A program made the position numbers and the translations under genes. This document shows, one piece after another, positions 36,583-64,000 of a stretch of DNA of 64,000 nt. Position 1 is the first letter of the stretch; every line of letters starts with the position of its first letter. The notes under the pieces are model-generated. The model did not search any database, was not told the DNA's origin, and worked only from the letters and a program-made list of their open reading frames with translations. Source of the DNA: an uncultured Ectothiorhodospiraceae bacterium. GTDB lineage: Bacteria > Pseudomonadota > Gammaproteobacteria > UBA6429 > Thiohalophilaceae. The DNA lies in the NCBI GenBank assembly GCA_947260005.1, contig CAMYOL010000029.1:187077-251076 (forward strand), given 5' to 3'.

Positions 36583-37338
36583 TCAAGTCCCTTTATCTTT
36601 CTTAGTCAACGAATCAATCAGGTCCATAGGCAGAGGAAACACAATCGTATTCGATTTTTCATTAGCGATCTCGGTTAGTGTTTGCAGGTAACGCAGCTGC
36701 AAAGCCTGAGATTGTTGGGAAAGAGTTCTGGCAGCCTCTAACAATTTTTCTGATGCCTGCATTTCACCTTCGGCATGAATAACCTTAGCCCGTCGTACCC
36801 GTTCGGCCTCAGCCTGTTTGGCAATGGCACGAACCATACTCTCGTCAAGGTCCACATGTTTGATCTCAACATTAGCGACTTTAATACCCCAGGCATCGGT
36901 TTGTTGATCCAGGATTTCCTGAACATCGGTATTCAGACGTTCGCGTTCTGCCAGCATTTCATCCAACTCATGTTGTCCCAACACCGAACGCAAAGTGGTC
37001 TGGGCAAGTTGACTGGTGGCATCATAAAAATTTTCCACCTGGATGATCGCCTTGTCTGGTTCTATCACGCGAAAATACACAACTGCATTGACCTTCACAG
37101 ATACGTTATCACGTGAGATCACATCCTGGCTCGGCACATCCATGACGATGGTACGCAAATCGACGCGTACCATTTGCTGAATCACTGGAATGATAAGAAT
37201 GAAACCAGGCCCCTTTACACGCCAGAACCGTCCCAGCAAGAACACAACCCCACGTTCATATTCTCGAAGAATACGGATAGCGCTGGCAAAAAACATCACC
37301 ACCAGGACTACTACACTATATACAACGTACGATGTCAT
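36583..37338 (-). CDS. Slipin (SPFH/stomatin-family membrane protein)
   Basis: A 251-residue SPFH protein. One N-terminal membrane segment ([19 protein letters not shown]) is followed by [38 protein letters not shown], the stomatin signature, and a C-terminal coiled coil ([30 protein letters not shown]). The start overlaps the NfeD-type gene by four bases (ATGA), so translation is coupled. Slipin/NfeD pairs are a widespread two-gene unit thought to act in membrane protein quality control. Confidence 0.93.
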
Positions 37339-38798
37339 GAGACTTTCTCCTTTGTTTCACTATTAGCCAACGTTTTTGTTTTGACTTTTAGGGTTAACCC
37401 CTTGATGCCAATGACATCGACCACTTGATCTTTTTGTAAGGGCGTGTTCGTTTTGGCCTGCCAGGTTTCACTGTGAACCATAACTTGGCCTTTGCGATCA
37501 AAATCTTCCAAAACCAGCGCCTCACTACCTACAAGTTGTTCCCTACCACTGACCACCGGCCGTCGTCGTGCCTTGATCGCCATGCCTATTGCGAAAATAA
37601 ACACCAATGCACTTAACAGGGTAAACGTTATAATAACGGAAATATTAATACCGAATCCTGGCACATCGGTATCCATCAAAATGATCGAGCCGATCGCAAA
37701 AGCGACAATACCTCCTATACCCAGAATGCCAAAACTCGGTTCATAGGCTTCACCCACCATCAGCGCCACACCTAACAGGATTAAACCCATGCCAGCATAA
37801 TTGATCGGTAACAACTGCAGGGAATACAGGGCTAGTAATAAACATATTGCACCAACCGTCCCAGGAACAATGGCACCGGGGTTGGCAAATTCAAAGATCA
37901 AACCATAGATGCCTATTAACAACAGGATATATGCCACATTAGGATCGGTTAGCACACTAAGCAATCGACTGCGCCAATCCATTTCGTGTGGTTGCACCGT
38001 CAGTCCAGTCGTTTGTAATGTGCGCTTCCGTCCCTGCACTACCACTTCTTTAGTATCAATTTGTCTTAATAGATCAGTCATGCTAGTAGCGACGATATCA
38101 ATCACATTTAGTTTCAATGCCTCCGTTGCCTGTAAACTCGCCGACTCACGTACTGCCGTCTCTGCCCATTCCTGATTACGACCATGCAGTTCAGCCAGGC
38201 CACGGATATAGGCTACTGCATCATTTATAACTTTATTTCGCATTGCATCTTGATTGTCGGGTACCACAGGGGATGATTTTTTACTTTCGTCTTTAGTCTT
38301 ATCCCGCTCCTGATCTTTACTCTTGCCCGGTGACATACCACCGAGTGAGACCGGGGTCGCTGCACCCAGATTGGTACCGGGTGCCATTGCGGCAATATGA
38401 CTGGCATAGATTATATAAGTTCCGGCGCTGGCAGCACGTGCCCCGGTAGGCGAGACATAACTCGCTACTGGCACGGATGAACCACTAATGGCTTTGATGA
38501 TATCGCGCATCGATGAATCCAAACCACCCGGTGTATCCATCCTGATAACCACCAGCTCGGCATTTTGCTGTGCTGCGCTCTGCAACGCACGTTTAATATA
38601 ATCTGCCGTCGCCGGCCCAATAGCCCCATCGATAGTGACTTGCATGATGGCACCCGGGCTATCCTTACCAGCAGTAATATTGCTTAAGAGAACGCTGGCC
38701 AATAACAGCGCGATCATCAAGCTTAACCGACTAAATCCGGGCTGAGGTATAAATTTGAACACCTGGCGAATTACTCCGTTTAATAAAGTGGTGAGCAT
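37335..38798 (-). CDS. NfeD-type membrane serine protease (ClpP-class fused to NfeD)
   Basis: A 487-residue membrane protein. After a signal/anchor ([18 protein letters not shown]) comes a ClpP/SppA-like protease domain with [21 protein letters not shown] and the nucleophile region [35 protein letters not shown]. Four or five membrane segments lie at about 285-425, followed by the NfeD OB-fold ([27 protein letters not shown]). An acidic/basic Ser-Lys insert ([16 protein letters not shown]) follows the catalytic core. It is the partner of the downstream slipin, which is probably a substrate. Confidence 0.92.
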
Positions 38799-38963: not shown

Positions 38964-41402
38964 TTAAGCCTTTAGTTTTTCATCCTTTTCCTGTTCAGGA
39001 CACTGTTTGTGTTTATCATCTGCGGTTGTACCAAAATCATGTCGCAAGTTTGCCAACTCTTCAAGACGCATATTTACGCGTCCATTAATAGATTCCGTCG
39101 GATAGTTTCCTTCTGCATCGAGCTCACCAGCACTCACGCCGGTCAACAGCTCGATGGCCTGATCAATATCAGACACCGGATAAATATTAAAATCACCTTT
39201 TTTTACTGCTTCAACAACTTCCTGACGTAGCATTAAATGCTGAACATTAGATTGGGGTATGATCACGCCTTGTTGTTTATTTAATCCTTTGATCTTGCAG
39301 ATATCGAAAAAGCCTTCGATTTTTTCATTAACGCCACCAATGACCTGAACATTTCCATGCTGGTTGGCTGAACCGGTAATCGCCAGGGATTGCTTAATGG
39401 GTGCATCGGCTAGTGCCGACAGTAATGCACATAATTCACCGATTGTGGCGCTATCACCATCAATCTGACCATAAGACTGCTCAAACACCAGACTCGCTGC
39501 TAATGATAAAGGATAATTACGCGCATAACGTGCCGCTAAAAATGAAGTTAATATCAGTACACCTTTTGAATGGATGGCTCCCCCCATCTCGACTTCACGT
39601 TCAATATCAACCACCTCACCTTCACCTAGCCTTGCTGTTGCCGTAATTCGTGAGGGTTGTGCAAAAGCATATGGACCTAATTCTATAACTGAGAGTCCAT
39701 TTACCTGCGCAATTTTTTCTCCGTCGACATCGATGAGTATCGTTCCGCGACTGATCTCTTCCTGCAGCCGAGTGTGATAGCGACTTGAACGATAAATCTG
39801 TTTATCGATGGCCTTTTGCACATCTTCTTTGCCTACTAGTTCTGTATTTCGTTTACCAGCCCAGTAATCTGCCTCGCGCATAACATCAACAACTGAAAGC
39901 ATGTGGGTTGAAAGTTTTTCAGAATCATCAGCCAATCGAGCACTATGCTCAATCAGACGTGCGACGGCTTCACAATCAAACTCGGCAAGTTTCTCTTTAC
40001 GTACCAGGCTTGCCAGTAGCCGTGCATATATTTCGTTGTTTTTATTATCCCAGGGTATACTGTCTTCAAAATCAGCAGCCACTTTAAATAGTTCAGCAAA
40101 TTCCGGATCAAATTCAATTAACAAATAGTAAAGAGCTCTCTCGCCGACTAATATCACTTTAATATCCAGAGGGATTGGGTCGGGTTGTAATGAAACAGTG
40201 CTAACCAGCCCAATTGTTTCAGCCAATGATTGAATCGTTATACAACCTGAAGAAATCACTCTCTTCAATCCTTCCCATGCATAAGGTTGGCTTAATACTT
40301 TAATCGCATCTAATATTAAATAACCCCCATTGGCCTTATGTAGCGCCCCAGGTTTTATTAACATGTAATCGGTGATCAATGTCCCCATTTCAGAAATATA
40401 TTCAACACGCCCGATAAGACTTTGGAATGTTGGATTGTTTTCATATACTATCGGCGCACCATTATTATCTGAATTATCTACCAACAAATTAACTTCATAG
40501 CCACGAAAAGAAGGTTCCACTTCCTCCCCTAACATTTCATCACCAACGTCAATATGACGAAAGGCCCGTAAATGACCTATCACATGCTCTTGAACTCTAT
40601 CGAGATGATTTTGTACGGCTTCATTTCCTGCATACTTTTCTTTTAATTCTTCAATAAAATGTCCTACAGCGAATAATCCAACCTCGCGGTTTAATCCTTT
40701 AATTTTTTCTCTGACTTCGCGTTGCCATTTCAGCCGCTGACGCAGGATTGATTGAGCCTTTTCTTCCAACACGGCAATAATTTGTTCCAGCCGCTGTTTT
40801 TCGTCTTCGTCCAGCGCATCATATTCTTCACTGGTTATTGTTTTATCATTCTTCTTTGGCACAAACGTTATATCCATGTCTGCGTGTAAAACTGCAATGT
40901 TATGCTTCTCAGCCTCTTGTGTTAATTCACTAAATGCCTGTTGGTTATGATCATAGAAACTATCCTGGATTTCCTGAAACCGAATATGATACTGTTCGCT
41001 CTCAAAAGCGCCTGGTATAGCGGTACGCAGCTCATCGACCAGTTGCTGCATATCCAGTTTAAATAAACGTCCCCGCCCTGCTGGAAAAGATATTGCAATG
41101 GGTTTTTGAGGATCTAAAAAATTTCCTACATAACACCAGTCTACCGCTGCCTGTGTCTCATCGCTTAGCTGCTCAAGGTATTGTCGGATCATGCCATGTT
41201 TCCCATACCCGACAGGTCCTAACACATACAGGTTAAAACCTTCACGTTGAATGCCTACTCCAAACTTTAGTGCCTCCATGGCACGCTCCTGGCCAACAAA
41301 CTCTTTTATTTCTTCTAATTCAGCAGTACTGCTAAAAGAAAATGCGTTGGGGTCGCATCGGGTGTATAGCTGTTGTGCTGAAAGTGCTGCAGGCTTTGAC
41401 AT
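38964..41402 (-). CDS. Lon-like ATP-dependent protease (AAA_32 / AsrA type)
   Basis: An 812-residue protein. A divergent AAA+ region has Walker A GPVGYGKH at 62-69. A long coiled-coil insertion (about 160-260) and the remainder of the ATPase (ANGGYLILDAIKVLSQPYAWEGLKRV) come next. A C-terminal Lon protease domain has catalytic Ser in QIDGDSATIGELCALLSALAD and Lys in GGVNEKIEGFF. It lacks the N-terminal Lon substrate domain. It resembles the family of P. aeruginosa AsrA, linked to heat-shock control; equivalence here is inference. It stands alone. Confidence 0.9.
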   Translation of the reverse strand: MSKPAALSAQQLYTRCDPNAFSFSSTAELEEIKEFVGQERAMEALKFGVGIQREGFNLYVLGPVGYGKHGMIRQYLEQLSDETQAAVDWCYVGNFLDPQKPIAISFPAGRGRLFKLDMQQLVDELRTAIPGAFESEQYHIRFQEIQDSFYDHNQQAFSELTQEAEKHNIAVLHADMDITFVPKKNDKTITSEEYDALDEDEKQRLEQIIAVLEEKAQSILRQRLKWQREVREKIKGLNREVGLFAVGHFIEELKEKYAGNEAVQNHLDRVQEHVIGHLRAFRHIDVGDEMLGEEVEPSFRGYEVNLLVDNSDNNGAPIVYENNPTFQSLIGRVEYISEMGTLITDYMLIKPGALHKANGGYLILDAIKVLSQPYAWEGLKRVISSGCITIQSLAETIGLVSTVSLQPDPIPLDIKVILVGERALYYLLIEFDPEFAELFKVAADFEDSIPWDNKNNEIYARLLASLVRKEKLAEFDCEAVARLIEHSARLADDSEKLSTHMLSVVDVMREADYWAGKRNTELVGKEDVQKAIDKQIYRSSRYHTRLQEEISRGTILIDVDGEKIAQVNGLSVIELGPYAFAQPSRITATARLGEGEVVDIEREVEMGGAIHSKGVLILTSFLAARYARNYPLSLAASLVFEQSYGQIDGDSATIGELCALLSALADAPIKQSLAITGSANQHGNVQVIGGVNEKIEGFFDICKIKGLNKQQGVIIPQSNVQHLMLRQEVVEAVKKGDFNIYPVSDIDQAIELLTGVSAGELDAEGNYPTESINGRVNMRLEELANLRHDFGTTADDKHKQCPEQEKDEKLKA

Positions 41403-52974: not shown

Positions 52975-54075
52975 CTAAAGAGGCAGACAAGGTTCACCAC
53001 GGTCTATACGAGTGGTATCCACAACCGGCAAACCGTCTACCAGATTTTTGGGATGATAGTGGCTGGGTTCATTATCACGCCGATTGAACGTGGCCGCATG
53101 AATCGATTCACCATCTTGTACATGGGCCCCCAGCTTACGCTGATATTCACCAAATAGTTTATATTTAAAGCTCATTGAATCACGTAACTCTGAATCGAAG
53201 CAAGGACGAAAGTAAGATAAATAGTTATCATCAAATGCCAGGCCTAGCTTCTCGGCTTTTTCGATGATCCAATGGAGTGGTTCATTGGCAACCCCGTCAG
53301 GATGATATCCCCCGCCCACATTGGAATGAACACCGGGAAACCAGGCCTGCTCTAACTGCCCGGTCCAGTCCGAAGGACGTGTCCAAATACTTGGTCGAAA
53401 GGGCTTTCGCCGTTCATCGATAGCAAGGGCATGATAAGCGTTGAGAATATATTGATTTAAGCCAATATCATGATATTTGTATTTTCGACGATGAAAGAGT
53501 TGGCCAAGCAATCCAGGCGCACCCAGCGAACCAACCGTATCCCAGACACCAATAAAATGAATCGGTGGGCACGGCCGACGGCTACGAATATTCTTAAATG
53601 CTTTTTCCCACTTGGCATCATTTTTTGTCGTGCGAGATTCATAGAGTTTATAAAGATTGGGAGTGTAGAATTCATCATTTTTTTTGAGCAGGCCGACTTT
53701 TTTCATAAACCCGGCCAATGTCCGTACCGTAAATGCACCACGGCTAAAACCAAAAAAATAAAGCTCATCGCCTTCTTCATAATTAAATACAATAAAGCGA
53801 TACAATACACGCACGTTTACCGCCAGGCCATGCCCGAACGCTCCTCCGGTAAATTTATCCAGGCCTCCGTTTGTCCCGACGCCTTCATGATAGTACACAA
53901 TCTGATCGACTTTATTGGCGGTATAATCGGGTGTATCATCTGGTATATCACAAGGTAATACCGCCCGTGCAATTTTTAAAACATTACTGGGTTTACACCG
54001 ACCCGTTTTCTCATCGACCTGTTCAGGCTCATTCCAGGTTCCGTCGGCGCAGATGATGATTCGTCTCATAGCCAT
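52975..54075 (-). CDS. DUF2235 alpha/beta hydrolase (Tle1-like phospholipase fold)
   Basis: A 366-residue protein with the DUF2235 signature: RRIIICADGTWNEPEQ, IVYYHEGVGTNGG, the nucleophile elbow FGFSRGAFTVRTLAG (S111), the acid region FIGVWDTVGSLG and the His in FPGVHSNVGGGYH. Type VI secretion lipase effectors of the Tle1 group share this fold, but many DUF2235 proteins are not effectors. No signal peptide and no adaptor or VgrG gene is nearby. An AAGGAC ribosome site precedes the start. Confidence 0.88.
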   Translation of the reverse strand: MAMRRIIICADGTWNEPEQVDEKTGRCKPSNVLKIARAVLPCDIPDDTPDYTANKVDQIVYYHEGVGTNGGLDKFTGGAFGHGLAVNVRVLYRFIVFNYEEGDELYFFGFSRGAFTVRTLAGFMKKVGLLKKNDEFYTPNLYKLYESRTTKNDAKWEKAFKNIRSRRPCPPIHFIGVWDTVGSLGAPGLLGQLFHRRKYKYHDIGLNQYILNAYHALAIDERRKPFRPSIWTRPSDWTGQLEQAWFPGVHSNVGGGYHPDGVANEPLHWIIEKAEKLGLAFDDNYLSYFRPCFDSELRDSMSFKYKLFGEYQRKLGAHVQDGESIHAATFNRRDNEPSHYHPKNLVDGLPVVDTTRIDRGEPCLPL

Positions 54076-54517: not shown

Positions 54518-55891
54518 ATGGGCGCAAAAAAAAAGGTCAAAGACACGAAGAAGATGGTCAATATTGAAGTATCCGTTAAGCCAGATGGTGATGCATTATC
54601 GGTTTATGATCAAGATACTTATCCCAGCACTAAAAATATTGACGACTTTCGGGCACATAAAGGACGTAGCATCGAGCTTGCACGTAAATTAGCAAAGAAT
54701 AATTTTACTGTTCACCACGTAGGTGATTTCAGCATCTCAGCCGCATGCCCAGCCGAACAATTTGAAAGTTTTTTTAAAACAAAAATATCTGATCAAAAAC
54801 CCGACGAACCCAAATTAGCGCCTGAAGGTTATATGATTCATGCTCCCTTAAGTGGTGCAGACTGGGAAATTCCTAAAGCAGATGGTTTATCAAATTTGAT
54901 TGAACGTGCCTATATTCAACAAGATCCGATTTTTATGAGTGATGAACGTGAACTCCCCCCCTTTTGGAATGATAAGTTTCGATTAAGGGTACCCGTCGAT
55001 GTAGCACAGATTATGGGAGCAAGTTCTGTGCATCGCATGGGTTTAACTGGCAATGGCGTGAAAGTTGCGATGCCTGATTCTGGTTTTTACCACCACCCCT
55101 ACTTCATTGAGCAAGGTTATAACTTTTTATCGGTAACGGCCCCAGATGCCCTCGATCATACAACTGATAGCAGCGGACATGGCACTGGTGAGTGCGCCAA
55201 TCTTTTTGCGACGGCACCTGAGGTCAATTTCATTGGTGTAAAAATGAATAACCCAACCCTGGCGTTTAAAACGGCCGTGGATTTTATGCCCGATATCATG
55301 ACGAACAGTTGGGGATATAGCGTCGATATGCCTGGGACCAGCATGCCAAACTGGCTACGTCCACTTTATCTTGCCGTATTAGATGCGGTGTCGAAAGGCA
55401 TTACCGTCTGTTTCTCAGCAGGGAATGGCCACTTTGCTTTTCCCGGAAGTATTCCCGAAGTTATTAGTGTCGGAGGTGTCCATGTTGACGGTGATTTAAA
55501 TTATACGGTGTCTGACTACACCAGTGGTTTTTCATCAACGTGGTTCCCGGGTCGTGAGACACCAGATATCAGTGGTCTGTGTGGGATGCGGCCGACAGCG
55601 GATTATATTGTTTTACCCGTTGAGGATGGCGCGAGTTTGGAAAAAGAGGATGGCTGGGGAGCATTCAGTGGCACCTCTGCGTCTTCACCGATGGTCGCAG
55701 GCGTATGTGCCTTGCTCAAACAAGCCGATCAAGAGCTTAGCCCTGAAAACATCAAAAACCTGCTTAAATTTACCGCGCAGGATATCACGACAGGAACCAA
55801 CGCACATGGCCGAGCTGCAACCCCCGGCCCTGATGGTGCAACCGGATTTGGACTGGTCAATGCGGAGCGCGCGATAAACGCCATCGTGTAA
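54518..55891 (+). CDS. Subtilisin-like serine protease (S8) without signal peptide
   Basis: A 457-residue protease. The catalytic triad is complete: D187 (AMPDSGFYHH), H221 (DSSGHGTGECA), S387 (FSGTSASSPMVAGV), with oxyanion Asn N303 (SAGNGHF). Residues 15-130 form a pro-domain-like segment (ELARKLAKNNFTVHHVGDFSISAACPAEQFESFFKTKI). The first residues are basic (MGAKKKVKDTKKM) with no signal peptide, unlike most bacterial subtilases. The next gene encodes a protein resembling the pro-domain, so a protease-inhibitor pair is plausible. Confidence 0.92.
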   Translation: MGAKKKVKDTKKMVNIEVSVKPDGDALSVYDQDTYPSTKNIDDFRAHKGRSIELARKLAKNNFTVHHVGDFSISAACPAEQFESFFKTKISDQKPDEPKLAPEGYMIHAPLSGADWEIPKADGLSNLIERAYIQQDPIFMSDERELPPFWNDKFRLRVPVDVAQIMGASSVHRMGLTGNGVKVAMPDSGFYHHPYFIEQGYNFLSVTAPDALDHTTDSSGHGTGECANLFATAPEVNFIGVKMNNPTLAFKTAVDFMPDIMTNSWGYSVDMPGTSMPNWLRPLYLAVLDAVSKGITVCFSAGNGHFAFPGSIPEVISVGGVHVDGDLNYTVSDYTSGFSSTWFPGRETPDISGLCGMRPTADYIVLPVEDGASLEKEDGWGAFSGTSASSPMVAGVCALLKQADQELSPENIKNLLKFTAQDITTGTNAHGRAATPGPDGATGFGLVNAERAINAIV

Positions 55892-55959: not shown

Positions 55960-56304
55960 ATGAGTAATACTAATGTTCAGTTTGAAGTCCTGATACACGC
56001 CCGCGATTCCGGGCAAGTTCCTTCCGTTGCAACTATCGATTCATTTAAACCCGATCCCGCTGACCTTATTCATGCAAAACGCTGGTTTACAGAACAGGGT
56101 ATTACCGCCCATCAAACCGACTTCGGTCTGGTGTGCTCAGCCCCGAAAAATATCTTTGAATCAATCTTCGATGTCACACTGACGGAAAATGAAAATCAAT
56201 CATCTCAAGTTGCTTTTAATATAGTCGGACAAATATCCGCCCCTTCAGAATTAAAAGATATCATTGAGCAGGTGACCCTTTCGGTTCAGCCAGAGTATTA
56301 TTGA
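55960..56304 (+). CDS. Small protein resembling the subtilase pro-domain
   Basis: A 114-residue soluble protein. HAKRWFTEQGITAHQTDFGLVCSAPKNIFESIFDVTLTENE lines up with the subtilase N-terminal ARKLAKNNFTVHHVGDFSISAACPAEQFESFFKTKISDQ, including the FES-F block. Pro-domains of subtilases often act as tight inhibitors, so this could be a stand-alone inhibitor or folding aid for the adjacent protease. That role is inferred from position and similarity. ATG start after the hairpin. Confidence 0.7.
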   Translation: MSNTNVQFEVLIHARDSGQVPSVATIDSFKPDPADLIHAKRWFTEQGITAHQTDFGLVCSAPKNIFESIFDVTLTENENQSSQVAFNIVGQISAPSELKDIIEQVTLSVQPEYY

Positions 56305-58404: not shown

Positions 58405-61400
58405 TTATAACAAATCAAAATCACCCGCTAACACACGGTCGATGCGTCCTGTTCGCCAATTACGGACACTGTCTTTCACAAGTGGTGTTGGCTCTTCACA
58501 ATAACGCCGCACGACATTAAGTGTCTTGCTTTCAACACTTGCGAATACTGCTTCTGCCTGTGCTCTCATATCCTGTTGATTATCAATTGCGCCGATTGGC
58601 TGTCCAACAACACTAACTTTAGTACTAAATCGTTCTACCTGGTTTTCTTTGGCTGGAATCTCAAAAACATGAAGACCAGACTCTGGCTGAAGGATTCGAT
58701 ATGCACCGAATCCGTTTACTGCAAGAATACCTCGACACCCCCCTTTCGCATCACAATGATTCGCAATAAGTTGAACATGCATTCGTCGACGCTTCCCCCA
58801 GTTTTGATACATTTTCAACAAACGTGAGTAGACTTCTGCCGTTTGTTTTTCATCATGACTCTTTTCAAATTTTGTCTCCAGCAATATAAAAGCATCGAAG
58901 GGAGATGACTCCATAAAGTCTTGATAAGCATTGTCCAAAAGATATAACTGTTCTGCCAAACGTCGTACCATATCAGGATGGTAAACTGGCATTTTAGTCG
59001 GTGCGATTCGCTTTAACCGTTGCAAAAGTGATTCTGCTGATTTATAACCTGATTCGAGACGATCCATAAATTCTATCAAAGCAAGTGTGTTGAATCGATC
59101 AGCTGATTCCCAGAATTCTGGGGATCTCATTTTAGCCATTGCTTCATCTTTAGAATGGTTCCATTTCGACTCTGCAAGGGCATCCGATATTACCTGGAAC
59201 TGAGATTCAAGAAACCTGAATTCGTTGGCTGTACCTTTAGCAAGCAAAGCGAGAGTTTTCAAATCCAGCTTATCATTTTGTCCATTATAATTATCTTCGG
59301 CAATCGAAACAGGCTCTGGATTATCAGGGTCAATAAATTGCACCTGTATTTGATCGCCATCGCGGCCAAGAAATAAAAATTGATCGCCTTTAGGAAAACG
59401 TCTTTCTACGATAGTTTCTGCCAAAGGTGATAATACAAAGCGCTCAATTGCACGTTTAAGAGGTCGAGCCCCCAGATCCAACGTAAAGCCTTTTTGGAGT
59501 AAAAACTCGATGACAGAATCATCAAATTCAACCGCCCAATCTCGATGTCGAAGTCCATGACGATTAAATGCCAACTGTAATTCCTTTTTGATTATCTCTC
59601 TCATCACGCTGCGGGTTAGTGGATTAAAAATTATCACTCGATCCAAACGATTAATAAATTCACGGCGGAATGTGAGGTTGACTGCTTTCTCAACAGCAGC
59701 GGGGGAAAAACTCGCTGTATCCTTTGAAAAACCGATACTTGTTCCGCTGCTGATAGTAGCACCCAAATTTGACGTCAATATTATGATACATTGACGAAAA
59801 CTCACACTATGACCTGCCCGGTCTGTGAGTCTGCCATCATCAAATACCTGCAAGAATAAATCCCAGACATTTGAGTGAGCCTTCTCAAACTCATCAAGTA
59901 ACACAACGCTATAGGGTTGCTGTCTAACTTGGGTCACGAAGGACTTTGAGGGGTTCTGTTGGTTATTCTCGAGCAGCAATCGCCAAGAGGAATCTGAAGC
60001 TTGATATTCACTCATATCAATGCGAATCATACGGTTTTCTGACCCAAACAGAACTTCAGACAAGGTCTTGGCTATTTCAGTCTTACCGCTACCAGTCGGG
60101 CCAGCAAACAAAAATACGCCTAATGGTCGGGTCGGATCCGTCACTCCCGCCTTGATCATTGCGATTCGTTCTACCAGGCATTCAACGGCCTCTGCTTGTC
60201 CTATGACACGTTTTTGTAATGTGTTACGAATTATATCGAGATCCAATTCCTGGCGATCGTCCAATATATCGATCGGTATATTTGTAATTTGTGATAACGA
60301 TCTCAGTAAATCGTCTTTCCCGACTGGCAAGTACTCGGATTCACTTGCCGCGAGTCTATTAACAGTCACTTTTAATAACTGCAGAATATTGCCAGGTGCG
60401 ACAGTACTATATAAATAGTGTTGTACTAATTCGAACGCCTGGTTAATAGTTGATTTATCAATAACCGTATCACCGAACTTCTCCTCCTGGATATGAGCCC
60501 ATTCATGAGCAATACTCAAAGCCTGCTCGTCCTGTACGGGTTCAAGACGAACCGTTTCAAATAATGTTTTAACCTTTGGTCGTTCTCGTAACAGATTTTC
60601 AAACGCATCCGGGGTGGCGTCTCCAATAAGAATCAGCTCACCCCGTTCGATAGCAGGCATGATCAAGTCCAGCAAGCCACGTGGTTTTTCACGATAACTT
60701 CCTGCTGCAACCATTTCATAAATGTCAGGCACATACCAGACCACTTTTCTCTCAGCGCCCAGGGTTGCCAGCAGTGACTTCACACGCCCTTCCAACTCTC
60801 CGATATATTTCTGTCCAGCAACAACCTCTCCAGCTGCCCCCTCAAATACAAGCCAGTTCATATCATTGGCATAACGTGCAACATAACGTATTAAAGTAGT
60901 CTTACCAACACCACTTTCACCTACAACAATCATGGAACGTGCAGGTGGATTAAAAATAGTTTCTTGAATGCGTTGCGCCTGTTGCAATATGGCATCATAT
61001 TCCACTACAGGAACACGAAAAACCTGCTCATCCCATATTCGCCCAACACTTTCTAAAAGTGCTTTATTAATTCGATGCTTCTTCCATAGCTTAATTTTAT
61101 CTTTAACGACACTAGCACCTTTGCCCCGCATGTCCTTTAATAACTCATTGAGAATTTCAATAGCTTCACTTTTATAACCATCTAAATTTTCAAATAATGA
61201 ATCAGCCTTCGCTAGTTCGAATTGTTGATTAATATACGATTCAAGAATACCTACGGCAATGGGGTAATTTTTCCACCATTCTTGTACCTTACTCAACACC
61301 TCATCAAGTCTCGGTTCCAGACTTTTATGCTGAATAATTTCTAAAGAAAAATACACTGGCCATAATCCCATACGAGAGAGGGCGTTAATAATCTGCGTCA

Positions 61401-61770
61401 GCTCTTGTTCAGTTAAATCACGCTGTTCAAGCGCTCGCAAAGCCATGCAGGCAATAATATAGTTTTCCCCAACCGCATAAGATAATAAATTCTCAGTATC
61501 GTAACTTTCATGAGAAAGTTTTATTACACCTGTTTCAAAGTCCTGTGCGCCAACCAAATCTTTAGGATGGGCACTGCGTTCAAACAAATCATCTAATTCG
61601 GAAGCAATAGCATAGATGTCCTTCTTTTTTTCATCCTCAACAATATTTTCAGTATGACTAATTTGATTAGTTGAATCCTTCTTCCGTCCAGGCCAGATTT
61701 TACGGATCAACATTGTAAAGACTAACGCAGTGATGACACCTGAGATAAATATTAGTATAGTTTTGTCCAT
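58405..61770 (-). CDS. Membrane-anchored Clp-type double AAA+ protein fused to a release-factor-like domain
   Basis: ATG at 61770 gives 1121 residues; a TTG 17 codons earlier is also in frame. Positions below count from the ATG. An N-terminal membrane segment (TILIFISGVITALVFTMLI, 4-22) is followed by a helical region to about 260. The first AAA+ domain has Walker A GESGVGKT (284-291) but a degenerate Walker B (VPDIYEM, no Glu after Asp). The second is a full ClpB-type domain: GPTGSGKT (557-564), VVLLDEFEKAH (622-632), TSNLG, and GARPLKRAIER. No ClpB M-domain. Residues 876-1121 read as a PCRF/release-factor region: SPEFWESADRF, LLKMYQNWGKRR, GILAVNGFGAYRILQPESGLHVF, and the RF-like tail VVRRYCEEPTPLVKDSVRNW and RTGRIDRVLAGDFDLL. 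GGQ is absent. Disaggregase acting on ribosome-bound chains is a guess. Confidence 0.85.
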   Translation of the reverse strand: MDKTILIFISGVITALVFTMLIRKIWPGRKKDSTNQISHTENIVEDEKKKDIYAIASELDDLFERSAHPKDLVGAQDFETGVIKLSHESYDTENLLSYAVGENYIIACMALRALEQRDLTEQELTQIINALSRMGLWPVYFSLEIIQHKSLEPRLDEVLSKVQEWWKNYPIAVGILESYINQQFELAKADSLFENLDGYKSEAIEILNELLKDMRGKGASVVKDKIKLWKKHRINKALLESVGRIWDEQVFRVPVVEYDAILQQAQRIQETIFNPPARSMIVVGESGVGKTTLIRYVARYANDMNWLVFEGAAGEVVAGQKYIGELEGRVKSLLATLGAERKVVWYVPDIYEMVAAGSYREKPRGLLDLIMPAIERGELILIGDATPDAFENLLRERPKVKTLFETVRLEPVQDEQALSIAHEWAHIQEEKFGDTVIDKSTINQAFELVQHYLYSTVAPGNILQLLKVTVNRLAASESEYLPVGKDDLLRSLSQITNIPIDILDDRQELDLDIIRNTLQKRVIGQAEAVECLVERIAMIKAGVTDPTRPLGVFLFAGPTGSGKTEIAKTLSEVLFGSENRMIRIDMSEYQASDSSWRLLLENNQQNPSKSFVTQVRQQPYSVVLLDEFEKAHSNVWDLFLQVFDDGRLTDRAGHSVSFRQCIIILTSNLGATISSGTSIGFSKDTASFSPAAVEKAVNLTFRREFINRLDRVIIFNPLTRSVMREIIKKELQLAFNRHGLRHRDWAVEFDDSVIEFLLQKGFTLDLGARPLKRAIERFVLSPLAETIVERRFPKGDQFLFLGRDGDQIQVQFIDPDNPEPVSIAEDNYNGQNDKLDLKTLALLAKGTANEFRFLESQFQVISDALAESKWNHSKDEAMAKMRSPEFWESADRFNTLALIEFMDRLESGYKSAESLLQRLKRIAPTKMPVYHPDMVRRLAEQLYLLDNAYQDFMESSPFDAFILLETKFEKSHDEKQTAEVYSRLLKMYQNWGKRRRMHVQLIANHCDAKGGCRGILAVNGFGAYRILQPESGLHVFEIPAKENQVERFSTKVSVVGQPIGAIDNQQDMRAQAEAVFASVESKTLNVVRRYCEEPTPLVKDSVRNWRTGRIDRVLAGDFDLL

Positions 61771-61846
61771 GGCTACATTATAAACAAGTAAATAAGAAAT
61801 AAAACAGAAACCCCTGACCAATAAAACCTGAACAGTTTGATATCAC

Positions 61847-61960: not shown

Positions 61961-63490
61961 TCATCTTTTCCTAACCGCCGCTTTTTGGATTAACTCAGCA
62001 CAGTGAGATTGACCACTTTGCTTAGCAATCTCATAGGCGGTACGCCCTTGTTTGTCATCGAGTTGCTTCACCAACTTCAAGTGTCTATCCGCACCCGCAT
62101 TTAGCAATACGCTTACATTTTTAATGCGCCCTGCCCTCGCGGCAATCATCAGGGCACTCCAACCAAATTTATTTACGCTATTCACCTTTGCACCGGCGTT
62201 TAACATGACTTTCAGTATATCGCTATTGGCATTACCCGCCGCGACAGCCAACGGCATTTCACCTGTCAGGTCAGTGAGATTAATGTTCAGGCCCGCTTTT
62301 AATACTACGTCCAGAACCGAAGCGGATACCATCCTCTCTCTGGCAAACACAAACGCCAGGTTCTGTCCGGTGCGGGGATCGATCCAGTTGACCTCGGCAC
62401 CGTGTTGAATCAGTAAATCAACCATCTCAACATCAGCATTTATCGCGGCCGCATTGATGGGTCGTTTATTCAGGTGATCGCCGAAGTTGGGGCTGACGCC
62501 ATTTTTTAAAAGTCGCTGCACCTCACTATGTCGTTGCGAGCGCACCGCGCTTAGTAATAAAGACTGTTGACTTTCTGTCTCAGGTGGCAAGGTTGCGCCA
62601 GCTTTGATCAACAGATCGCATAAGCGGCGTTCACTTCTATACTTACACATTCGTAATGGCGTTTCTTTGCGTCCCCCTTTATCGTTAACCTGAGCACCAT
62701 GGGCAATTAACTGCACCAGTGATAACGCATCGTTTTCCAACAACGTTACCATCACTGGGGTAAACCCGCTGTGCGTGGTGGCATTCACATCGGCCCCGGC
62801 CTCAATCAATGTGCTTATTAAATTACGATCATGCAGACGTATCGCCTGCACCAGCGGCGTGAAGTTTTTTGCCCGACCCTGGCTGCTGGTTACATTTACA
62901 TTGGCACCCGCTTTAATCAAAGGCTCAATCATTTCATGGCGACCACGGCGCACTGCCACTAATAAAGGCGTTCGACCTTCGTGATCCCTTGCCTCTACGT
63001 TGGCACCAACCTTGAGTAAGATTCGTAAGGTGTCGAGCTGACCTTGTGCAGCGGCCAGGTGTAAAGGTGTACGGCCCTTGTCGGTGGCCGCACTCACATT
63101 TGCGCCTTTTTTAACGAGAGCCGTGATTAAACCAGTCGCATTGTTTCGCACCGCATAATGTAAGGGGGTAAGCTGATTTTTTGACTGTTTATTCGGATCG
63201 GCGCCCAACGTTAACAACAGCAAGGCGGTGTCTGCGCGCCGATTGTTGGCCGCATTGTGAATTGCGTAATAACCATTGCCATCACTGGCCTTATCAATGT
63301 TCATGCCGGCCGCTACAAACCAGCGAATATCATCATGCCGATGAAAACTCACCGCATGCATAAAGGCCTTCATAGTAAAGTCCAGGTCTTTGGCCTTGAT
63401 TTTTTCTATGGCCGACTGCGGTGTGGGGTACGCCTGTGCCCCACTGACCAGCCACAGTAATGCAAATAGAATGAGTAGTGGCCGCTTCAT
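61961..63490 (-). CDS. Exported ankyrin-repeat protein
   Basis: A 509-residue protein with a signal peptide (RPLLILFALLWLVSGAQA) and about thirteen ankyrin repeats covering residues 35-500. Units such as KGRTPLHLAAAQGQLDTLRILLKVGANVEARD and WSALMIAARAGRIKNVSVLLNAGADRH are canonical. Secretion to the periplasm is therefore likely. The start overlaps the stop of the upstream ankyrin gene by one base, so the two are co-translated. Function is protein binding, partner unknown; the AAA+ fusion gene follows on the same strand. Confidence 0.9.
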   Translation of the reverse strand: MKRPLLILFALLWLVSGAQAYPTPQSAIEKIKAKDLDFTMKAFMHAVSFHRHDDIRWFVAAGMNIDKASDGNGYYAIHNAANNRRADTALLLLTLGADPNKQSKNQLTPLHYAVRNNATGLITALVKKGANVSAATDKGRTPLHLAAAQGQLDTLRILLKVGANVEARDHEGRTPLLVAVRRGRHEMIEPLIKAGANVNVTSSQGRAKNFTPLVQAIRLHDRNLISTLIEAGADVNATTHSGFTPVMVTLLENDALSLVQLIAHGAQVNDKGGRKETPLRMCKYRSERRLCDLLIKAGATLPPETESQQSLLLSAVRSQRHSEVQRLLKNGVSPNFGDHLNKRPINAAAINADVEMVDLLIQHGAEVNWIDPRTGQNLAFVFARERMVSASVLDVVLKAGLNINLTDLTGEMPLAVAAGNANSDILKVMLNAGAKVNSVNKFGWSALMIAARAGRIKNVSVLLNAGADRHLKLVKQLDDKQGRTAYEIAKQSGQSHCAELIQKAAVRKR

Positions 63491-64000
63491 TAATCCAGCA
63501 CCTTGATCTCGACCTTTAAATTACCGCGGTCCTTGCGTGTCTTGGGTTGGGCTTTGATCGGGTCAGCCCCCCCGGCTTTGGTTAACAAGGTGACCACATC
63601 AAAATGCCCGGCACGTTTGGCTTCGCTCAAGGCTGTCCAGCCGCGCCGACTGCGCGCATTGATGTTAGCACCATGCTTTAATAACAAAGCAACTTTTTCT
63701 GAACTGCCTGTTTGCGCGGCGGCCATCAGTGGCGTCCAGCCATGCCAGTTGGGTTGATTTACGTCCACACCCGCTTCAATTAAGGCTTTTAACACGGCTA
63801 TACCCTCGGTCGCACTGGCTTTGACTAACAGTGGCCAATGATCCTTATCCGTGACATTTACTTTGGCACCGTGTTTGATTAATAAGCGAACCATTTTTGC
63901 ATCGGCGGTTGCATCACGAATCGCCACAAACATGACTGTGGTGTTTTCCTTAGAATGGCGCTGATGGATATTGGCGCCAGCCTTGAGTAATGTTTCCACC
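63490..64000 (-). CDS. Ankyrin-repeat protein (C-terminal part, cut by window edge)
   Basis: The visible 169 residues hold four to five ankyrin repeats (HWPLLVKASATEGIAVLKALIEAGVDVNQPN; WTPLMAAAQTGSSEKVALLLKHGANINARS). They are followed by a basic tail (KAQPKTRKDRGNLKVEIKVLD). The N-terminus lies beyond position 64000, so localisation is unknown. Its TAA shares a base with the ATG of the next ankyrin gene. Confidence 0.88.
   Translation of the reverse strand, partial: VETLLKAGANIHQRHSKENTTVMFVAIRDATADAKMVRLLIKHGAKVNVTDKDHWPLLVKASATEGIAVLKALIEAGVDVNQPNWHGWTPLMAAAQTGSSEKVALLLKHGANINARSRRGWTALSEAKRAGHFDVVTLLTKAGGADPIKAQPKTRKDRGNLKVEIKVLD

Follow-up and report, generated by a model that had tools for sequence, protein, structure and literature searches.

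The 64,000-nucleotide stretch of contig CAMYOL010000029.1 (assembly GCA_947260005.1) analysed here, referred to as the window, comes from an uncultured Ectothiorhodospiraceae bacterium and carries at positions 58405..61770 of its minus strand a complete coding sequence that joins a Clp-type ATPase to a module resembling release factor 2 (RF2). The frame is open from an ATG at 61770 to a stop codon at 58405-58407 and encodes 1121 amino acids; its homologues share the same full-length plan, and it is present as a single copy in the host genome (3.7 Mb, 99% complete). From the N- to the C-terminus the protein comprises a membrane helix, an all-helical domain, a first AAA+ module (D1), a second one (D2) with its D2-small domain, and the release-factor-like module (about residues 846-1121). 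Pfam recognised PF00004 at residues 280-395, PF07724 at 548-711, PF10431 at 718-797 and, above its gathering score, PF03462 (PCRF). An initial annotation, made from the DNA letters alone, had described one continuous frame with an N-terminal membrane helix, two AAA+ domains of Clp type and a release-factor domain devoid of GGQ, and all of these elements were recovered. The sequence identifies the product as a double-ring-type Clp/Hsp100 ATPase, with a predicted membrane tether, whose C-terminal third descended from RF2. All features of this gene given below lie on the minus strand.

On its own, the window protein scored 32.3 bits against PF03462 (gathering score 24; E 1.1e-7), and phmmer against the PDB returned RF2 and RF1 with E values from 2e-7 to 1e-2, together with a second, weak stretch aligned at the C-terminus of the release factors. 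A single-sequence match as modest as the PCRF one would suit chance or convergent similarity, or a fusion created by faulty assembly, and to either of these we attach next to no probability. A family profile of the module, built from the window protein and 10 relatives, matched 39 PDB sequences, all of them release factors, with RF2 first (2.4e-19) and RF1 following (2e-11); PCRF was found in the 11 aligned members, and PF00472, the GGQ domain, in none of the 11. The AlphaFold model of the module (predicted local distance difference test, pLDDT, 80) matched RF2 in Foldseek at 1.3e-9, and its VIA-align superposition on free Escherichia coli RF2 (1gqe) gave a Z of 16.7 and a root-mean-square deviation of 4.2 over 258 residues. 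PrfH also appeared in the fold comparison, with Z of 9.9-11.0. Because the superposition places model residues 25-300 on RF2 residues 6-356, domains 1, 2 and 4 are all present, and RF2 is a nearer relative than RF1; the model is of low confidence over its final 25 residues, and there the match comes from the sequence pattern. The same fusion was found in 12 other genomes, and the frame is complete in ten of these. The profile, the fold match over three domains and the recurrence of the fusion refute chance similarity and an assembly artefact, and the C-terminal module is a true release-factor homologue of the RF2 type. The profile search and the overlay on RF2 had both been proposed in the initial annotation as checks of its assignment, and both led to release factors.

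The module can be divided into an RF2 domain 1-like helical bundle with the PEFW motif (residues 846-956; 58903..59235), assigned by profile, model and fold match, a domain 2-like (PCRF) beta region (957-1057; 58600..58902), a short linker (1058-1087; 58510..58599) where release factors carry the inserted GGQ domain 3, and a domain 4-like C-terminus (1088-1121; 58408..58509) with the pattern RRY..P.PL..D..R.WR.GR.D.VL.GDFDLL, which is its most conserved part. The PCRF parts named in the initial annotation stood, and its description could be refined to an RF2-like module in which domain 1 was kept and domains 2 and 4 are no longer separated by the GGQ domain, which was excised. The distance from the G.H of domain 2 to the RRY of domain 4 is 53 residues in the window protein and 38-53 in the main family, against 123-124 in RF1 and RF2. 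Loss of peptide release, which the initial annotation had also put forward, is well supported by this absence in the sequence. The GGQ domain of release factors is an insert in their stop-codon domain (PMC6514570), so its removal leaves a complete binding module. When aligned with RF1 and RF2, the window protein has also lost the stop-codon motifs SPF/PxT and the GGTE helix tip, which implies that any binding to the A site would be codon-independent, and the release-factor tail helix that follows FDLL is not present.

A divergent relative (L057:9583-12333, equivalent to L010:1381-4131; locus of G190) lacks the membrane anchor and the N-terminal domain, and retains 86 residues at the position of the GGQ domain, with GGR where GGQ would stand. 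Its similarity in the release-factor segment is weak yet above that of shuffled sequences (3 of 300 shuffles reach the same level), and it may represent a half-way stage of the domain loss, a hint drawn from the sequence. The letters GGQ do occur in five relatives (SGGQFLF), but at the end of D2, outside the release-factor module, and were dismissed as a coincidence.

The motor was compared in a motif table of 12 family members, the host genome's own ClpA and ClpB, and other Clp proteins. D1 (residues about 262-480; 60331..60987), defined by PF00004 and the motif table, retains Walker A and the pore-loop aromatic [YF].G in the 12 members; in the same 12 the arginine finger pair is missing and the acidic pair of Walker B is altered (PD, PE, HD, DR, EQ or SD). 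In the window protein VVWYVPDIYE stands in place of ILFIDEIH (60715..60747). D1 thus looks impaired in hydrolysis, as judged from these motifs. D2 with D2-small (residues about 490-812; 59335..60303; PF07724 4.8e-43, PF10431 1.3e-15) is intact throughout the family, with Walker A, Walker B (DE), sensor 1, arginine finger and sensor 2 in 12 of 12 members; the GYVG pore loop is absent from D2 in every member and a shorter stretch takes its place (59923..59991 in the window protein). An IGF tripeptide (residues 679-681; 59728..59736) occupies the position of the loop by which ClpA docks on ClpP and aligns with the SIGF of the host genome's own ClpA; across the family this loop reads [IVMP][GA]F, being [IVM]GF in half of the 12 members and either PGF or PAF in the remaining six. 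The ClpB-type coiled-coil middle domain is absent, and D1 runs directly into D2 at the place of the insertion in the host ClpB. In a tree of the AAA core comprising the 12 members and seven reference Clp proteins, with the root drawn at the midpoint, the family forms one clade (100/100 support) on a long stem, apart from ClpA, ClpB and ClpC. The apparent impairment of D1, the loss of GYVG from D2 and the ClpP-type loop all bear on the mechanism of the motor and had been overlooked in the initial annotation.

The state of the motor also bears on the idea that the protein is a regulator occupying or sequestering a release-factor partner, such as RF3, the L11 stalk or an ArfA-like factor, and uses ATP only to control assembly. 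RF2 domain 1 faces the L11 stalk and RF3, and the fusion has retained this domain; moreover, release would not be expected of a protein devoid of GGQ. However, the fully conserved catalytic residues of D2 and the pore-loop aromatic of D1 point to active threading and not to passive binding, and gene order links no such partner to the fusion. We consider this regulator unlikely.

A membrane helix is predicted at residues 4-22 (61705..61761), with a mean hydropathy of 2.54 over 19 residues and followed by a basic stretch with a net charge of +4 just past the helix. The predicted topology is N-out, with the bulk of the protein in the cytoplasm. An equivalent helix was found in 11 of the 12 family members, the exception being L057. 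Next to it, at the usual place of the Clp N-domain, lies an all-helical domain (residues 39-242; 61045..61656; AlphaFold2 pLDDT 84). Pfam did not find the Clp N-domain (PF02861) in any of 10 members whose N-terminal regions were searched, and the domain of the window protein gave no Pfam match, no PDB profile match and no Foldseek match below 0.001; VIA revealed at most a generic similarity to HEAT/ARM-like folds (Z up to 8.8). This is a helical domain without known relatives.

The genomes in which the fusion recurs belong to two other families of the same class, whose full-length proteins share 31-39% identity with the window protein. Fusion-strength matches were those with E below 1e-60, ordinary release factors reaching 1e-15 or weaker. 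In an even sample of the class the fusion was present in 3 of 369 genomes, the window's own included; the second family yielded matches in 8 of 147 genomes, with the fusion in six of eight genomes of one genus, and the third in 4 of 101. It was not found in three genomes of the same genus as the window or in the other members of the window's family, some of these genomes being incomplete. The distribution is patchy, yet the fusion is kept within at least one genus. A search for the same fusion and its neighbours had been suggested in the initial annotation; it bore fruit for the fusion but not for the neighbours, as an all-against-all comparison of the 13 loci showed sharing essentially confined to one genus and no conserved translation gene. 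Accordingly, the fusion gene appears to act alone, and an operon partner was rejected as a guide to its function. A phage origin was discarded, since phages gave no release-factor-type match and the matches on viral contigs were all to the AAA core only; so was a plasmid origin, the plasmid set giving just two chromosome-sized Neisseria records at E 6e-3. A known defence system was likewise rejected, as only generic AAA matches were obtained.

We tentatively favour, at slightly less than an even chance, a membrane-tethered remodelling or proteolytic motor that would be docked on the ribosome through its RF2-derived module and would not release the peptide. RF2 domains 1 and 2/4 touch the stalk base and the decoding centre. 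As the motifs suggest, D1 would grip the substrate while D2 would supply the ATP-driven movement, so that the motor could remodel or unfold a client, which might be handed to ClpP through the IGF-type loop. With less certainty, the RF2-derived module could still dock close to the A site or the stalk base, its contact being either the ribosome itself or a factor bound to it, in a manner that would be independent of the codon and would leave the peptidyl-tRNA unhydrolysed; such docking might place the inner-membrane motor at nascent chains or ribosome-bound proteins. The recognition of stalled or vacant ribosomes put forward in the initial annotation is a conjecture that goes beyond these observations. 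The net charge of domain 2/4, negative in release factors and neutral or positive in the family, fits contact with RNA; the shift is small.

Several observations weigh against ribosome docking and delivery to ClpP. The residues that the module shares with release factors look mostly related to the fold, and the known codon-contact motifs are gone; the best-conserved element, RRY..RGWR, is partly specific to the family and would fit a new partner equally well. The C-terminus of a Clp hexamer is near the exit face of D2, away from the entry pore, which is a difficulty for a module supposed to present substrates. Translation-related neighbours were not conserved among the 13 loci, and the charge shift of domain 2/4 is only small. 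In addition, docking on ClpP is insecure, since six of the 12 members replace [LIV]GF by PGF or PAF.

Much of this evidence would also suit a protein in which the RF2 fold is only a scaffold, put to new use for oligomerisation or as an adaptor between proteins, and the motor extracts or unfolds membrane-associated proteins without any involvement of ribosomes. In favour of it are the loss of the GGQ domain along with the two stop-codon motifs, a conserved stretch (RRY..RGWR..GDFDLL) that is in part peculiar to the family, the lack of any translation gene among conserved neighbours, and a membrane anchor that nearly all family members possess. Nevertheless, a mere scaffold would require neither that the three non-catalytic release-factor domains be kept together nor that the domain 2/4 part be less acidic than in release factors. 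Such reuse as an adaptor falls short of an even chance as well, and we regard it as nearly as likely as ribosome docking.

The fusion shares with RF2 (prfB; PF03462 and PF00472) domains 1, 2 and 4, the PEFW motif and the RRY/D.R/G..D pattern of the C-terminus; it differs in lacking the GGQ domain, SPF, the GGTE helix tip and the tail helix after FDLL, and in having a Clp motor and an anchor. As in ClpA, ClpB and ClpC (Hsp100 class I), there are two AAA+ modules, D2-small and the catalytic residues of D2; the ClpB middle domain is missing, and the IGF loop, half kept in the family, is ClpA-like. In contrast to these proteins, the fusion forms a separate clade, has lost the D1 Walker B, the arginine finger and the GYVG of D2, and has a membrane helix and a release-factor-like C-terminus but no Clp N-domain. 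PrfH and ArfB are likewise bacterial relatives of release factors that act outside normal termination. They keep GGQ and have lost other parts of the release factor, the reverse of what is seen in the fusion, whose release-factor-like module has no GGQ motif.

In eukaryotic ribosome-associated quality control, the release-factor-type protein Vms1/ANKZF1 works with the AAA+ unfoldase Cdc48, and Dom34/Pelota is a release-dead aeRF1 paralogue that acts on stalled ribosomes (PMC6514570). The Vms1-Cdc48 pairing resembles the mechanism proposed here in logic and not in ancestry. Vms1, an aeRF1-type hydrolase, is a protein of its own, whereas in the fusion a GGQ-less bacterial RF2 belongs to the motor's own chain. 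Dom34 is also alike in logic only, being of unrelated fold and lineage and having a GTPase, not an AAA+ motor, as its partner. By extension, the fusion might be a quality-control machine of a previously unknown type, associated with bacterial ribosomes at the inner membrane, in which a release-dead and codon-blind RF2 module would dock on ribosomes and make the Clp motor of the same chain pull on nascent chains or ribosome-bound proteins and possibly feed ClpP; we hold this with more reserve than either ribosome docking or adaptor reuse.

Searches of the open literature, a dedicated review of release-factor evolution included, brought up no description of such a fusion; subscription papers and preprints lay outside their scope. 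Each half belongs to a known family. What appears to be undescribed is their combination, the excision of the GGQ domain and the division of gripping and catalysis between D1 and D2. To our knowledge, the only link between ribosome rescue and Clp proteolysis in bacteria is an indirect one, by way of tmRNA tags or alanine tails. If the proposed function is true, the union of a motor with a ribosome-binding-type module in a single chain would connect rescue and proteolysis directly, anchored at the membrane. In evolutionary terms, the protein is also a clear instance of a release factor that shed precisely the inserted catalytic domain, together with the two codon-reading motifs, and kept the rest.

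The host genome has normal RF1 and RF2, both with GGQ and codon motifs, and encodes an ArfB-like GGQ protein (160-aa frame), tmRNA, ClpP, ClpA and ClpB. As the host retains its own RF1, RF2, ArfB-like protein, tmRNA, ClpP and ClpA, the fusion is an extra system that replaces none of them. A genome-contig scan with the single protein gave only an ordinary ClpB (L008). The host genome also has, at another place (L004), one more Clp paralogue, which lacks the D1 pore-loop aromatic.

Scans for promoters and terminators gave chance-level results only. A TATAAT hexamer (tttataatg) is found about 10 bases before the ATG (61771-61800, minus strand), and a clear Shine-Dalgarno sequence is not visible there; the message could be leaderless, or the start could lie elsewhere. 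Directly upstream are two adjoining ankyrin-repeat frames (61961-63999, minus strand) that touch at 63490 and are possibly one split gene.

Elsewhere in the window, a subtilase-family peptidase (54518-55891, plus strand) is followed by a free-standing protein of 114 aa (55960-56304, plus strand) similar to a pro-kumamolisin activation domain, which may serve the subtilase as a detached inhibitor or as a helper in folding. A catalytic domain like that of the type VI secretion system phospholipase Tle1 (E 3.9e-80) is encoded at 52975-54075 on the minus strand. A LonB/LonC-like ATP-dependent protease (38964-41402, minus strand) adjoins an NfeD-like and stomatin-like pair (36583-38798), which are membrane quality-control genes.
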